This document shows, in pieces, positions 1,031-39,476 of a stretch of DNA of 64,000 bases (positions are counted from its first letter, which is position 1; every line of letters begins with the position of its first letter). The stretch is from contig JAPYSB010000001.1 of assembly GCA_029936675.1 (NCBI GenBank), positions 238,669 through 302,668 on the forward strand, in the 5' to 3' direction. The notes under the pieces are model-generated. The model was not told where the DNA came from, did not search any database, and saw nothing but the letters and a program-made list of their open reading frames with translations. This DNA is from Dehalococcoidia bacterium (GTDB taxonomy: Bacteria; Chloroflexota; Dehalococcoidia; Lucifugimonadales; UBA826). The position numbers were made by a program, and so were the translations under genes.

Positions 1031-1981
1031 TTGACCTCCTTATTGAAAAGGACATCTACACCTGAATCTAAACCTAGGAACACCCTTAAATGGCTAGCAA
1101 TTATCACATTGATATCTGCTTTCAGCCAGGTGACCTTGGGGGGGTATGTGAGATCCAGTGAGTCAGGGTTGGGATGTCCAGATTGGCCTCTATGTCATGG
1201 ACAAATAATACCTCCTTTTGAATTTCATACCCTTGTCGAATATTCCCACCGCCTAAATGCATCTTTGTTAATGGTTTTTGTAGGAACACTTTCTCTATTA
1301 TGCTGGTTTCGGTTTAGAGAAGAAAAAATTGTTATTCGCCTTGCTGGGGCTGCCTTAGGACTTGTCTTATGTGTTGCCGTACTTGGAGGAATAACAGTCT
1401 TAACTGAATTGGCGTGGTGGATAAGATTAATTCATCTTTCACTTGCTGAATTATTGATAGGATCCGTCACTGCTATAGTCGGGTTGGCTTTTTACAACAA
1501 CAAATCATCTAGCTTGGTTACTAAAGGAATCGCAACGCCAAATTGGAGAAGAAAACTATGGATAATTTCTGCAGGCCTTTTCCTATTGATAATCTCGGGA
1601 TCTTACATGATTGGCGCTGGAGCAGGTTCTGCCTGCTCAACATGGCCGTTATGTAGAGGTGATTTGTTTCCCGACGGAGCAATATATGCGATCCATATGG
1701 GGCACAGGTATATAGCAGGCTTAATGGTTTTAATAGTAGCTTTTATTGTTTGGTCTTTCATCAAAAACGATGGACATGTCCCCGCTGTGAAACGTGTCTC
1801 CATGACCTTGATGCACAGTCTGCTTCTACAAATATTGGTCGGGGCAGTTTTGGTATGGGTCGGTTTTAATCCTGCACTGAAGACTATTCATCTGGCCTTG
1901 GCCACTTTATTATGGATAGCTACGATATATATGGTCAGTTGCGTAACCCAATATGAATCTGCGTATTCAAAAGATGAATGA
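1031..1981 (+). CDS. ctaA: Heme A synthase (COX15/CtaA family)
   Basis: Converts heme O to heme A in the membrane, supplying the a-type hemes of the oxidase encoded just downstream. The 316-residue protein has eight predicted helices in two homologous halves. The four expected heme-ligand histidines are present: EYSHRLNAS (H73), LIHLSLAE, HMGHRYIAG and TIHLALATL. Each half has a cysteine pair, GLGCPDWPLC (C49/C55) and SACSTWPLC, as in the Bacillus-type enzyme. The start is uncertain. TTG at 1031 directly abuts an AGAGAGG ribosome site, so the in-frame TTG at 1043 is at least as likely. The stop abuts the ATG of ctaB, so the two are co-transcribed. Confidence 0.92.
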   Translation: MTSLLKRTSTPESKPRNTLKWLAIITLISAFSQVTLGGYVRSSESGLGCPDWPLCHGQIIPPFEFHTLVEYSHRLNASLLMVFVGTLSLLCWFRFREEKIVIRLAGAALGLVLCVAVLGGITVLTELAWWIRLIHLSLAELLIGSVTAIVGLAFYNNKSSSLVTKGIATPNWRRKLWIISAGLFLLIISGSYMIGAGAGSACSTWPLCRGDLFPDGAIYAIHMGHRYIAGLMVLIVAFIVWSFIKNDGHVPAVKRVSMTLMHSLLLQILVGAVLVWVGFNPALKTIHLALATLLWIATIYMVSCVTQYESAYSKDE

Positions 1982-2845
1982 ATGATTTCTTCTTATATAG
2001 CTTTAACAAAACCAAAAATTATTGTCCTGCTACTAATAACCGCTTTAGGTGGGTTGTTTCTAGCTTCAGACGGGTTTCCTGATCTTATGATTACAACAGC
2101 AGTGTTGGTAGGTGGTAGCCTAGCTGCCGGTGGTGCCAATTCTCTAAATCATTTCTGGGATCGAGACATAGATGTAAAGATGAAAAGGACAACCAACAGA
2201 CCTGTGGCATCGGGTTCAGTGGCACCTGCAAATGCGTTGATTTTTGGCATTGTACTAAACTTGATAGCTTTCGGCCTTTTGTATTATTACGCCAATTTGT
2301 TGAGCGCCTTGCTTACACTATCAGCCACAATGTTCTATTTTTTTGTTTATACCATGATGCTAAAAAGAATCACCCCTCAAAACATTGTAATAGGAGGAGT
2401 GGCGGGATCCATACCTCCAGTGGTCGGATGGGCAGCGGTGACAGGCAATATTTTTGAGCCTGCTCCACTTTTCTTATTTCTAATAGTGTTTTTTTGGACA
2501 CCTCCTCATTTTTGGGCACTTTCCCTTATATTGAAAGATGATTACGCTAACGCAGGGGTACCTATGCTCCCGGTGGTAGCAGGAGTGCCCGCAACCAAGA
2601 CACAAATATTTGTTTACACATGGATATTGCTAGCCCTGCTGATTGCGGCGGCCTATTTCGTAGAGGAATTAGGAATTATTTTTGGGATTTCTGCTATTGT
2701 GCTATCAGCAGGTTTCATAGGGGCAACTTGGTTGCTAAAACGCAGGGACTCGATCGAATTAGCCATGCCGATATATTTATATTCCATGGCTTACCTCGCA
2801 TTGCTTTTCGTGGTTGTGGTAGTCGAAAGTTTTATTTTCGGATAA
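1982..2845 (+). CDS. ctaB: Protoheme IX farnesyltransferase (heme O synthase)
   Basis: UbiA-family prenyltransferase that adds a farnesyl group to heme b to give heme O, the substrate of CtaA. The 287-residue protein has about nine membrane helices. The first Asp-rich motif, NHFWDRDID followed by TNRPVASG (residues about 57-77), and the second loop LKDDYANAGVPMLPVV (about 185-200) are the family's Mg-diphosphate-binding signatures. ATG starts on the base after the ctaA stop, with its ribosome site inside ctaA, implying translational coupling. Confidence 0.95.
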   Translation: MISSYIALTKPKIIVLLLITALGGLFLASDGFPDLMITTAVLVGGSLAAGGANSLNHFWDRDIDVKMKRTTNRPVASGSVAPANALIFGIVLNLIAFGLLYYYANLLSALLTLSATMFYFFVYTMMLKRITPQNIVIGGVAGSIPPVVGWAAVTGNIFEPAPLFLFLIVFFWTPPHFWALSLILKDDYANAGVPMLPVVAGVPATKTQIFVYTWILLALLIAAAYFVEELGIIFGISAIVLSAGFIGATWLLKRRDSIELAMPIYLYSMAYLALLFVVVVVESFIFG

Positions 2846-15393: not shown

Positions 15394-17682
15394 TTACGAT
15401 GTTACTAAAGATCCGTTTTGGGAGATAGCATCAATCACAGACTCATCTATTCCGAATTCTCTAAGAATTTCAAGGCTATGTTCCCCTAAAAGAGGGGTTG
15501 GTTTGACTTGGGCTATGGGCAAATCTGGAAATTGAATGAGGTTATGAGAAAAAGCATACTCACTTCCATCATGAAGCACACTTTTTGATATCATATCGTT
15601 TTGAATCGCCTGCTTATCCTTAAAAAAATCCACTTCATAGTCAGTTATTGATTCTGCACAAGGTATATTGTTAGAACGCATCAGCTCCAGCCAGTATCTA
15701 GAATTATGGAGCTTTATAGCTTTTTCTAGCTGGGAGCCTAATTTTGAGTGTTCATGACGAGGATTTTTCCGACCAAGGCCTGTCAATCCCACGGCATCAA
15801 GCAGGGCATCCCCTGATACTGAATCCTCAGCACTAACATAAATCCAACCGTCACTAGTTTGATATAACCTGTGAAAATCACTTAGCCCATTCTGTGATTT
15901 ATCGGATATTCGTCTTTGTATCTTATTTTTATAACGAGAAAAATCGCCTTCCAAAAGCAAACACCCAGCATTAAGTAAATTAGTGTTAACCACTTGACCA
16001 AGGCCACTCTTCTCTTTTGCATAAAGAGCCATAACTGCCCCCAAGGCTCCCATGCACCCGGCAGTATAGTCGGTCGGGGCCACAGGCGCGAGAAAAGATG
16101 GAGAATTACCTTGTCCGCCTTGCGCAACTTGGAGACCCATCCAGGCCTGAGCCAGAGGATCGACCCCAGGTCTATTGGCAAAAGGGCCATCCCAACCAAA
16201 TGCAGTTACATGTACCTCTATCATTTTTGGATTGAATTTTCTTAAGGTCTCCGTATCCAATCCCATTCTACCCGTGGCACCAGGCCTTAGGTTCGCAACC
16301 ATAACGTCGCATGAACCGACAATTTTCTGAAGGGCTTTCTGCGCAACTTCATTTTTAGCATCAATAGATAACGACTTTTTGTTCGCGTTTAAGGCATGAA
16401 AATATCTTCCACTAGAGGGTCGTGAGATATCTCCGTAGGGAGGTTCTATCTTAAGTACATCAGCTCCCAAATCAGCAAGGAGTCGCCCCATTGTGGGGCC
16501 AGCTATTACGTTCGTGATGTCAGCCACTTTGATTCCATTTAAAGGTAGCTTATTAAAGGTTTGGTTCTCAAGATTGTTTTCAATTTGCAGTGATTGTTTT
16601 ATCGTAATCTCACTACTGGAATCCAGCACACGCGGCCCTTTGATCGAACCTGGTGTATTGGAAAATTTTATAGGCAACCCATATTGAATCATTGGGCCAT
16701 AAATTGGATCAATTAATTCATGAACCATTTGGTTATGTACAACTTGTTGATTTTCAATCGCCGCATCTGCTGTGCCAGCATGAGCAAATGGGACGTCTAC
16801 TGATTCGAATAGTTCGGCCCATTCATGAGATGGCCTTGTTTTCATAACGTTTTTCACTATCCCAAAAAGCTCGACCCTCGCTTCTTCATCCACCGGGTTG
16901 CGGCCGTCTCCATATCTTGGATTAGTCATAACCTCTGTTATACCCATAACAGTGGCAGCAATATCTACAAACCCCGCGTGAATGCAGCCCAGCTGAATCC
17001 ACTCCCCATCTTGGCATTCGTAGACACTATAAAATGGCCCGCCTCCAACTGGGGTAACCTTGACAGGTCGTGGGCGAACTCTGTCTCCGATAGCTTTCGG
17101 CATATATAAAAGACCAGCGGCCATCAATGATGTGTTTATCTTCAGGCCAGCGCCACTCTCAAGGCGGCGAAGTAGCCCGCTCGTGAGCCCCAAAGCTGCC
17201 AAAAGGCCAGCCCCTACGTCTATGACAGGATGCGCGACATGAGTTGAACCTTCCTCAAACCCTGGCATGCTATCTAAAATACCTGTTCTAGCTTTGATCA
17301 AATCAGATATGGGTGATTCATTCTTTAAAGATCCATTTTGACCATAAGGGGTAATCGAACAATGTAATAATCCAGGATTCACTTTTCTCAAAGTTTGAAA
17401 CCCGATCTTTTTTTGCAATGGATCTAGAGGGAGTAAATCCTCGATTAAAGCATCAGACTTATGAACAAGTTTTTCAAACAATGAGTACTGGGTCTTTAGA
17501 TCCAAATTATGGAGCTCTTTCCCTCGGTGTAAAGTGGCAAATTCCGGATCATCTCGGTTGATATTTTGCTTTACGGGAACCCTCAAAACCCTAGCTCCAT
17601 TATCACTCAAAAACATTGAGCAAATAGATCCAGCCTTGCCAGATGTGGTGTCAATAACATTAATGCCGTCGAATACTTCCAT
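15394..17682 (-). CDS. Tandem CaiB/BaiF CoA-transferase (two family III domains fused)
   Basis: Family III CoA-transferases move CoA between carboxylic acids through an aspartyl-CoA intermediate. This 762-residue protein is two copies in one chain. The first (about 1-360) is more divergent, but its likely catalytic Asp lies in HPVIDVGAG. The second (about 380-750) is canonical, opening GIKVADITNVIAGPTMGRLLADLGADV in two parts around residues 383-410, with catalytic Asp in PTDYTAG. Usual family members are 380-420 residues and dimerise as interlocked rings, so the fusion may encode a pseudo-dimer. Substrate unknown; the context suggests carboxylic-acid catabolism. Confidence 0.87.
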   Translation of the reverse strand: MEVFDGINVIDTTSGKAGSICSMFLSDNGARVLRVPVKQNINRDDPEFATLHRGKELHNLDLKTQYSLFEKLVHKSDALIEDLLPLDPLQKKIGFQTLRKVNPGLLHCSITPYGQNGSLKNESPISDLIKARTGILDSMPGFEEGSTHVAHPVIDVGAGLLAALGLTSGLLRRLESGAGLKINTSLMAAGLLYMPKAIGDRVRPRPVKVTPVGGGPFYSVYECQDGEWIQLGCIHAGFVDIAATVMGITEVMTNPRYGDGRNPVDEEARVELFGIVKNVMKTRPSHEWAELFESVDVPFAHAGTADAAIENQQVVHNQMVHELIDPIYGPMIQYGLPIKFSNTPGSIKGPRVLDSSSEITIKQSLQIENNLENQTFNKLPLNGIKVADITNVIAGPTMGRLLADLGADVLKIEPPYGDISRPSSGRYFHALNANKKSLSIDAKNEVAQKALQKIVGSCDVMVANLRPGATGRMGLDTETLRKFNPKMIEVHVTAFGWDGPFANRPGVDPLAQAWMGLQVAQGGQGNSPSFLAPVAPTDYTAGCMGALGAVMALYAKEKSGLGQVVNTNLLNAGCLLLEGDFSRYKNKIQRRISDKSQNGLSDFHRLYQTSDGWIYVSAEDSVSGDALLDAVGLTGLGRKNPRHEHSKLGSQLEKAIKLHNSRYWLELMRSNNIPCAESITDYEVDFFKDKQAIQNDMISKSVLHDGSEYAFSHNLIQFPDLPIAQVKPTPLLGEHSLEILREFGIDESVIDAISQNGSLVTS

Positions 17683-17735
17683 AACTTACTAAATTTCTCC
17701 GCAATTAAGAGGTGTCTGACAAACAATTTAAACAA

Positions 17736-17775
17736 AAAACCCCTGGGTTGGATCGAAATCTAACCCAGGGGTTTT
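17736..17775 (-). terminator. Intrinsic terminator after the selenoprotein gene
   Basis: A long inverted repeat, AAAACCCCTGGGTT..GAT with a 4-nt loop, contains one mismatch (wobble on the other strand). On the minus strand the 3' arm ends in GGGG followed by TTTTTT, a classic rho-independent terminator 23 nt after the selenoprotein stop. The A-tract at the other side could make it act in both directions. Confidence 0.88.
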
Positions 17776-17798
17776 CTCAAATTCAAACTTATTAAAGT

Positions 17799-18074
17799 CT
17801 AGGCAACAGGGGCTGCTAATTTTTCCCTAATAACTGCCCTCAGTTCTTTTACTCTCGGTAAATTCGGGAACACACCATCTTCCTCTGCCTTATCAAATAT
17901 CTTCTCTCCATCAGCAAATACCTGATAGATCCCACCTATTCCTGGTGTGATTCTTATAGCAATATCTTTCCCTGCTTCAGCAAAAAACTCGTTGGCCATC
18001 CAGGCCGCCATTCCGTGATGCGCTCAAGGCACACAATAGATTATTTCTACCTCGAATTTTCCTTCACCTGCCAT
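17799..18074 (-). CDS. SelW/Rdx-like selenoprotein (in-frame UGA = Sec17)
   Basis: Thioredoxin-like redox protein of the SelT/SelW/SelH (Rdx) family. The ORF as normally called starts at Met22, but the frame extends upstream through a TGA (18026-18024) to ATG at 18074, which has AGGAGG 5 nt before it. The 91-residue product begins MAGEGKFEVEIIYCVPU, so the TGA falls exactly at the second position of the family's CxxU/CxxC redox motif (C14-V-P-U17), after a beta strand. The rest (TPGIGGIYQVFADGEKIFDK, FPNLPRVKELRAVI) fits the family. A SECIS-like hairpin follows the TGA and selB lies 5 kb away. A terminator ends it. Its target is unknown; general thiol redox is likely. Confidence 0.9.
17994..18026 (-). 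promoter_or_regulatory. UGA codon and candidate bacterial SECIS hairpin
   Basis: After the UGA at 18026-18024, 17 nt of spacer lead to GGCC-TGGAT-GGCC (18006-17994), a 4-bp G+C stem with a 5-nt loop carrying G in its second position. About 21 nt separate the UGA from the loop, within the range usual for bacterial SECIS elements bound by SelB. The stem is short, so this is a candidate only. Confidence 0.55.
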
Positions 18075-18185
18075 GTTATCCTCCTTCTAGAAGTCACGGT
18101 ATTTTATTAACTAGCTGTGCCTAAATTATCACAAATTCAAACCATGGGTCAACAAACTTGGTGGCACCAGAATGAGCAACAAAAA

Positions 18186-23433: not shown

Positions 23434-25293
23434 TCATTCTCTCAAAATTCTAGCGTCGCCGACCCGTCTAGTAATTTGTTGCTGGTCCAGGTAATCCATA
23501 AACCCCAAAGCATATTTTCTGCTTGTCTGAAAAAGATCTCGAAAATCACCGACCGTGATTTCCCCATTCCTTGATATGTAGGAACGAACCCCATCCAACA
23601 TCTCTTTAAACGCCTCAGATGAGAAAACTATTCCATCACTAACTCTAACCAATCGTCCCTTATCAATCAGGAAATTCAGAACATCATCATCTACTTCTAA
23701 ATCCGTTCTCGGCGAAAATTTGCCTTTAGATATATTTTCCATGTAAGTCTCTGAAATTCGCTTCTGTTCTTCCGTCAAGTGTGATTCGTGGTCTGTAAGG
23801 GCGATTAGAGAGGTAAAATCTCTCAACACCTTGATTTTTTCCAAAACATTCACAACAGCATTAAAACTTTCTGGAGACAAAGTCAGTTTGTTCCTTAATT
23901 CTTCTCTGGGCATACCTTGCCTTAGAGGAAACTGTGTATGAAACAAATTAAGGCTCCTCTTAGTCAAATCACAGATATCTTCCCACCGTTTATTGGTGAA
24001 AAAATATGATTTCTCAATACTGGGAGATGTAGACATTAGAGCTTTCTCTGCTATCAATATTTCTATGGTAGGAATTATCTCTTCTTCCTGCATTGTCGAG
24101 GATGAAAGCAGTGAACCTAAAGTAGATGGGACAGCAGATTCAATAATATTAAGGATAATTTCAGAGGGGGTGCCGGATTCTAAGGATTCGAGTTTTTGCA
24201 AGGTGGGAAAGTGTCTTCTCCTATGTCGTTTCGCTCGGGTATCGACAATACTACCGCCACCAAGTGTAGTCATATTTGATCGAATAATGTAATGATCACC
24301 TCTGAGTACTGGTAATAACTTCTCAGGCTTAAGTTGTGCCCATGTACTGTTACCAGGTTGTACTTCTCCTTCCTCCAGCAACCTCAAACGGGCTACAACT
24401 TCTGAGCTTCCTGTATGCAGGGTAACGAACATGTTGTGGCGCAGTGGATTAGGCGCATCCTCAACAACATTAAGTCGAACATCAAAAGCCTCAGAGAGAT
24501 CTATGCAATTTGGGAAACTCAAAACGTCCCCTCTGGCAATTTGTGCAGATTCTATTCCTGATAGGTTCGCAGCGACTCGTGTGCCGGGGCCAAAGCTGGC
24601 TTCAGATTTACCATGGGACTGAAGACCTCTTATACGAGCCTTTAACCCAACGGGAATTATTTCTACTTCTTGGCCTACCGACAAATACCCGTCGATTAAA
24701 GTTCCGGTTACTACAGTGCCAAACCCACTAATCGAGAAAGCTCTATCAATAGGTAGTCTAGGTCTATTAAAGTCCTTTTTAGCAGTAGTTTTATCCAAGG
24801 CGGAATCTATAGAATCCATAAGATTGGAGATACCTGAACCGGTAGTTGCCGAAACAGATATTGTTTCAACCCCTTCCAATGTCGTGCCAGTCAACAATTC
24901 TTCTACCTCAGCATAGACCAGTTCCAGCCAATCTTCATCAACCAAATCTTCCTTAGTTACAACTACCACCCCATTAGTGACGCCCAACAAATCTAGAATT
25001 GCGAGATGTTCTCTAGTTTGTGGCATTACCGATTCATCTGCTGCTACAACCAGGAGAGCCATGTCAATACCACCAACCCCTGCCAACATGTTACTGACAA
25101 ATTTTTCATGGCCTGGAACATCAACTATACTAACCTCTCGTCCGGAAGGAAGTGTGATCCAAGCAAAGCCAATATCAATGGTCATGCCGCGGTCTTTCTC
25201 CTCTTGAAATCTGTCAGGATCGATACCTGTCAGACGTTCAACAAGTGTAGATTTTCCATGATCAACATGACCAGCAGTACCTATAACATACAC
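23434..25293 (-). CDS. selB: Selenocysteine-specific elongation factor SelB
   Basis: GTPase that delivers Sec-tRNA to UGA codons marked by a SECIS hairpin. The 619-residue protein opens with G1 GTAGHVDHGKS; switch II is VDVPGHEKF and G4 is VTKED. Two beta-barrel domains follow (about 175-345, with ISGFGTVVTGTL). The C-terminal 200 residues are winged-helix repeats that bind SECIS RNA and are absent from EF-Tu. GTG start after GAGG. selA, selC and selD are not adjacent. Its presence makes the UGA-containing gene at 17.8-18.1 kb decodable. Confidence 0.95.
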   Translation of the reverse strand: MYVIGTAGHVDHGKSTLVERLTGIDPDRFQEEKDRGMTIDIGFAWITLPSGREVSIVDVPGHEKFVSNMLAGVGGIDMALLVVAADESVMPQTREHLAILDLLGVTNGVVVVTKEDLVDEDWLELVYAEVEELLTGTTLEGVETISVSATTGSGISNLMDSIDSALDKTTAKKDFNRPRLPIDRAFSISGFGTVVTGTLIDGYLSVGQEVEIIPVGLKARIRGLQSHGKSEASFGPGTRVAANLSGIESAQIARGDVLSFPNCIDLSEAFDVRLNVVEDAPNPLRHNMFVTLHTGSSEVVARLRLLEEGEVQPGNSTWAQLKPEKLLPVLRGDHYIIRSNMTTLGGGSIVDTRAKRHRRRHFPTLQKLESLESGTPSEIILNIIESAVPSTLGSLLSSSTMQEEEIIPTIEILIAEKALMSTSPSIEKSYFFTNKRWEDICDLTKRSLNLFHTQFPLRQGMPREELRNKLTLSPESFNAVVNVLEKIKVLRDFTSLIALTDHESHLTEEQKRISETYMENISKGKFSPRTDLEVDDDVLNFLIDKGRLVRVSDGIVFSSEAFKEMLDGVRSYISRNGEITVGDFRDLFQTSRKYALGFMDYLDQQQITRRVGDARILRE

Positions 25294-38882: not shown

Positions 38883-39116
38883 TTATGGGACAGGATCGTA
38901 CCCTCTAGTTCCAAATGGCCTACATCTAAGTAGCCGTTTGAAGGTGATTCCAGTACCCGTAGCTAGACCGTATCGGTCTATGGCCGCATAAGCGTAATCT
39001 GAGCATGTCGGTAAATGTCGGCATCCCACAGGTAAGAAAGGTGAAATCAATTTTTTATAGGATTTTATTAGCCCTAATACTGTCGATTTAACAAAGTTCT
39101 CTTTTCGTAGTTTCAA
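38883..39116 (-). CDS. yidD: Membrane protein insertion efficiency factor YidD
   Basis: A 77-residue member of the YidD family, which helps YidC-dependent insertion. The signature SYKKLISPFLPVGCRHLPTCS (in two parts, about 19-39) and the end RLLRCRPFGTRGYDPVP are typical. The start 6 nt after the rnpA stop suggests coupling. Cys-rich and basic, probably membrane-peripheral. Confidence 0.95.
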   Translation of the reverse strand: MKLRKENFVKSTVLGLIKSYKKLISPFLPVGCRHLPTCSDYAYAAIDRYGLATGTGITFKRLLRCRPFGTRGYDPVP

Positions 39117-39122
39117 TCTATT

Positions 39123-39476
39123 TCACATTTTCTCGGTCGATATTAGGCTAGCGTTATTCAAAAGTTTGTACATTGAAGACGATATTCCATTGTAATCAGA
39201 GTTTAATATCCCATTTCTAGCGATAAAAACTATATCCATTCCGTCAATTATTCGAATGGAACTAGCGGATTCCTTCAACCTTCTTTTATATTTGTTCCTA
39301 ACAGTGGCTCCTCCAATTCTCTTTGAAACAATAAACCCCAATCGAGACCCTTTATATTTCCCTACTGTTTCTTGATCCATAGCAAGCATGACCAGGTTAA
39401 AGTCAGCAGATCCAGCACCATTTTTTTTTACAGAATCAAAGTCGGAGGAGTTACGTAGCTTTTGGTATTTTTGCAT
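39123..39476 (-). CDS. rnpA: Ribonuclease P protein component
   Basis: Protein subunit that helps RNase P RNA bind pre-tRNA. The 117-residue sequence has LRNSSDFDSVKKNG near the start, GFIVSKRIGGATVRNKYKRRLKE (RNR-type motif, about 48-70) and a C-terminal helix. Gene order rpmH-rnpA-yidD-yidC-khpB is the standard bacterial block, apart from the inserted propeller gene. Confidence 0.95.
   Translation of the reverse strand: MQKYQKLRNSSDFDSVKKNGAGSADFNLVMLAMDQETVGKYKGSRLGFIVSKRIGGATVRNKYKRRLKESASSIRIIDGMDIVFIARNGILNSDYNGISSSMYKLLNNASLISTEKM

Follow-up and report, generated by a model that had tools for sequence, protein, structure and literature searches.

We identified a gene for a predicted SelW-like selenoprotein of the bacterial Rdx family in the 64,000-nucleotide stretch of DNA, from a marine SAR202 bacterium, analyzed here (the window). 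We put the probability of this reading, in which UGA codon 17 would specify selenocysteine (Sec) by means of SelB and a hairpin in the mRNA, at roughly 95%. The gene lies at positions 17799-18074 on the minus strand and consists of 91 codons, running from ATG to TAG with a single in-frame TGA. A first-pass annotation of the window had given the correct coordinates but left the minus strand unstated; the plus strand of this interval is nonsense with in-frame stops. The minus-strand translation is MAGEGKFEVEIIYCVPUAHHGMAAWMANEFFAEAGKDIAIRITPGIGGIYQVFADGEKIFDKAEEDGVFPNLPRVKELRAVIREKLAAPVA*. As the annotation had described, the TGA at codon 17 (18024-18026, minus strand) falls at the second redox position of a CVPU motif (C14-V-P-U17), and it is the only TGA in the frame. 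The expression signals were also found where they had been placed. The Shine-Dalgarno sequence AGGAGG (18080-18085, minus strand) is 5 nt upstream of the ATG at 18074, and the family sequence continues toward an intrinsic terminator with a 16-bp stem followed by a T run (17734-17777, minus strand; -28.2 kcal/mol). Translation under table 11 yields a truncated ORF of 70 amino acids (17799-18011, minus strand) that starts at Met22 and lacks the redox motif, an outcome the annotation had anticipated. Ordinary gene callers shorten this SelW-like gene, though the gene is real.

The protein was assigned to the Rdx family by profile searches and structural modeling. The Pfam Rdx profile (PF10262) matched residues 8-83 at 51 bits (cut-off 22.6), and the match extends across the TGA. 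This score and the retention of the TGA in 71 homologous genes argue that the gene is not a product of chance. The NCBIfam profile TIGR02174 scored 32.4 bits, slightly below its cut-off of 34.2. We generated an AlphaFold2 model in which Cys replaces the UGA-encoded residue, using the window protein together with 36 homologues as input. The model has a mean pLDDT of 91.8 and contains a strand, a helix, three strands, and further helices in that order; the CxxU motif is placed after the first strand (strand 7-14, helix 20-37). When the model was compared to the PDB with Foldseek, the top 22 matches were all SelW-like, including mouse SelW, and ranked ahead of ordinary thioredoxins. The predicted thioredoxin-like SelW fold thus matches bacterial and mouse SelW structures. 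Six solved bacterial Rdx proteins (2oka, 2obk, 2fa8, 2ojl, 2p0g, and 3dex) resemble the window protein in both fold and sequence, with sequence matches at E values of 4e-9 to 5e-7. In the two alignments we inspected, 2oka and 2ojl carry Cys at the Sec position of the window protein and therefore need no Sec insertion. Mouse SelW (PDB 2npb) shares the fold (TMq 0.78) at 18% identity and also carries a CxxU motif. The mouse gene has a eukaryotic SECIS in its 3' UTR, whereas the hairpin of the window gene is located within the coding region.

We examined the UGA position in homologues from the same order. A search of 147 genomes found a match in 106, and the close relatives that carry names are SAR202, Chloroflexi, and Dehalococcoidia genomes from metagenomes. 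We read 92 copies, counting the window's own, which represent a part of the search matches. Among these 92, aligned codon 17 is TGA in 71, TGC in 14, and TGT in 7, with no other codon present, and Cys14 is invariant (92/92). Every copy read thus has Cys or UGA at this position, which supports the proposed assignment. The 21 Cys copies were selected because they lacked a stop in the search, so their share should not be taken as a frequency. The UGA form is present in at least 94 of the 147 sampled genomes of this order, which includes SAR202. A sequencing or assembly error that turned TGC or TGT into TGA might be suspected in a fragmented assembly of 53 contigs. The identical TGA, however, is found in 71 genes from many genera and assemblies, nearly all of them other than the assembly studied here, and it is retained in relatives from 98% to about 40% identical. 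We regard the chance of such an error as negligible. At L082 and L091, two Rdx genes lie in tandem, a UGA form beside a Cys form, which suggests duplication followed by Sec/Cys divergence.

The pattern of selection around the TGA bears on whether it is a true stop. A true stop would leave either a pseudogene or, with a start at Met22, a 70-residue Rdx fragment without the redox pair, and table 11 does yield exactly the Met22 ORF. In 22 close UGA forms, however, constraint is tighter in codons 6-16, ahead of the UGA, than in the rest of the gene: pN/pS is 0.105 there and 0.252 in codons 18-85. These ratios show purifying selection on the reading frame both upstream and downstream of the UGA, and strong selection upstream. 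Met22 is present in just 7 of the 71 UGA forms and is therefore not a conserved start, and 70 of the 71 have an upstream start with a Shine-Dalgarno-like site. The TGA is also conserved over large distances and is replaced by Cys only. Termination at this codon is very unlikely in light of these observations, which favor translation through the TGA.

The predicted decoding of UGA as Sec requires a dedicated machinery, and the genome encodes one. The first-pass annotation had attributed the decoding to selB from the window and proposed a search for selA, selC, and selD. All three were present in the genome. The window's selB (23434-25293, minus strand) codes for a selenocysteine-specific elongation factor with GTP_EFTU and SelB wing domains, and it matched TIGR00475 at 351.8 bits (cut-off 242). 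The tRNA-Sec gene (selC) scored 65.5 bits, above its cut-off, and has the anticodon UCA, while selA and selD scored 530 and 384 bits. selD is located at C10:144035-144958 in the same genome (G000; locus L012), and selA lies on that contig too, at a distance of about 40 kb. The selD gene encodes a selenoprotein as well, its in-frame TGA falling within a CAGU motif (ELASCAGUASKL). The single in-frame TGA in the conserved SelW-like gene and another in selD could also be expected if UGA were reassigned in this lineage, to Trp for example, or were read by a general suppressor. This explanation is even less probable than a true stop. TGA terminates 7 of the 38 open frames of at least 250 codons in the window, which indicates that the code is not reassigned; moreover, the aligned residues are Cys and never Trp, and dedicated Sec machinery is encoded.

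We compared the distribution of this machinery to that of the Sec and Cys forms across the order. Of the 147 genomes, 127 yielded selA and 134 yielded SelB. Eight genomes lack both selA and selB, and the copies found there comprise three Cys forms and one UGA form; elsewhere, 7 genomes have Cys forms only and 93 have UGA. Cys forms are thus commoner where both genes are absent (Fisher p=0.0025, in a test compiled from the listed copies that ignores relatedness). The exception is a 74% complete genome (G026) that has the UGA form, yet neither selA nor selB was found in it.

A hairpin downstream of the UGA shows the features expected of a bacterial SECIS, and we regard it as a putative SECIS element. 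Its core, GGCC-UGGAU-GGCC (17994-18006, minus strand), has its loop 21 nt past the UGA and G as the second loop base. With the UGA numbered 1-3, bases 21-24 pair with bases 30-33 around the loop UGGAU. The four stem pairs covary among 58 distinct UGA forms, with 29 changes on both sides compared to 11.6 in shuffles. None of 500 shuffles reached this count, and the signal falls away when the register is slid. The same search in the 21 Cys forms found no signal. Both bases of the outer pair, 21/33 (18006/17994), are third codon positions at which wobble changes are synonymous, and we tested this pair in sequences with four-fold degenerate codons at both sites. Watson-Crick pairing holds in 48 of 57 UGA forms (19.1 expected), with G-C, C-G, U-A, and A-U all represented, and still in 12 of 14 (4.4 expected) after thinning to less than 75% identity. 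Among the Cys forms, the pair is Watson-Crick in 4 of 21 (4.2 expected). The excess at 21/33 is the largest among 78 third-position column pairs. This synonymous covariation is, in our view, the strongest single piece of evidence, because protein function cannot explain a silent-site pair that is kept only with UGA. Synonymous divergence is also about halved near the hairpin, with a pS of 0.43 in codons 18-33 versus 0.80 in codons 34-85.

Folding analyses gave a more varied picture of the hairpin. A simple bSECIS loop-and-distance rule applied to minimum free energy structures was satisfied by 45 of the 71 UGA forms and less often by the Cys forms (6 of 21). Shuffling synonymous codons gave mild support, with mean folding energy z scores of about -0.9 to -1.2 for Sec forms versus about -0.3 to -0.6 for Cys forms. 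Folding of the single sequence over 45 nt from the UGA showed no excess stability over shuffles (z 0.20), and RNAalifold returned zero consensus pairs for the 58-sequence alignment of UGA forms. The RNAalifold result is probably due to differences in register among subclades and to some broken pairs. The full four-pair stem is present in 37 of the 58 distinct UGA forms; the third or so that are without it may use another register. A second register (18-22 with 29-33) occurs in about 20 UGA forms, but we did not count it as evidence because 11 of the 21 Cys forms share it. The UGA could be read as Sec while this particular hairpin is a by-product of codon usage and protein conservation rather than a SelB-binding element. 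The loop and stem include Trp, Met, and Ala codons, which limit the sequence, and single-sequence folding is unremarkable; both points would suit such an origin. It is nevertheless improbable, given that the closing pair joins two synonymous positions that covary in UGA forms only and that the covariation is lost in slid registers. A SECIS function for the hairpin is the interpretation we favor. All 71 UGA forms have TGG (Trp25) as the loop codon, which is kept in 15 of the 21 Cys forms, with Tyr, Ser, or Asn replacing Trp in the other 6. This pattern suggests a constraint on the protein sequence at Trp25 imposed by the RNA hairpin.

The homologues, the machinery genes, and the silent-site covariation of the hairpin support, at the level of sequence, the annotation's proposal that the UGA is decoded as Sec with the window's selB. 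We propose a model based on established bacterial Sec insertion. SelB carrying GTP and Sec-tRNA would bind the hairpin downstream of the UGA and deliver selenocysteine at codon 17. The product would be thioredoxin-like, and the loop joining its first strand to its first helix would carry a Cys14-x-x-Sec17 redox pair. This pair is expected to undergo reversible selenenylsulphide chemistry. The protein may act as a small thiol/selenol redox carrier, and it might conceivably do so with low-molecular-weight thiols.

The family to which the window gene belongs was already recognized as a common group of ocean selenoproteins. A Sargasso Sea survey reported in 2005 that SelW-like proteins were the largest selenoprotein family, with 48 genes containing a CXXU motif, and showed bacterial SECIS elements for this family (PMC1088965). 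The same study called SelW-like function unclear and mentioned an interaction with glutathione (PMC1088965). In a later survey, SelW-like genes made up 11.3% of 4324 marine selenoprotein genes (PMC9402790). The Sargasso Sea family (PMC1088965) and the gene described here share the Rdx assignment, the CXXU motif, a marine source, known Cys homologues, and a SECIS-like stem-loop that closely follows the UGA and has G in its apical loop. Our analysis differs from the earlier description in its SAR202 placement, full Sec machinery, and covariation test, none of which is a difference of kind. The novelty may be limited to the firm SAR202 placement and the synonymous-site covariation test. Our literature search, which had incomplete coverage, found no paper combining 'SAR202' and 'selenoprotein', and the SAR202 host assignment may therefore be unrecorded. 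The frequency of the UGA form within one order provides a named host group for a common ocean selenoprotein. We tentatively suggest, as a possibility that we rate below even odds, that SAR202 and its relatives are a main source, as yet unrecorded, for the SelW-like selenoprotein genes dominating marine metagenomes and that the Sec hairpin constrains their protein at Trp25. Gene catalogues of these genomes likely miss the redox half of the SelW-like protein.

We also examined the surroundings of the gene. A scan of the window for further selenoprotein frames revealed no other convincing candidate. Gene neighborhood was uninformative as a functional clue, with a CaiB-type CoA-transferase as the only recurring neighbor. 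In the window, this gene contains two CoA_transf_3 stretches and lies directly downstream of selW (15394-17682, minus strand). A CaiB-type homologue is found beside selW in 14 compared loci, some of which are the same place counted twice, and these include loci from other families of the order. Two additional TGA-joined frames (1031-2845 and 38883-39476) were rejected as selenoprotein genes; by eye, they look like adjacent ordinary genes. The frame at 38883-39476 (minus strand) contains what we take by eye to be rnpA and yidD, with a single TGA between them. This TGA is likely a true stop, and the two genes are perhaps translationally coupled. The frame at 1031-2845 (plus strand) consists of two membrane-protein frames, again separated by a single TGA, that by eye resemble the haem synthesis genes ctaA and ctaB.
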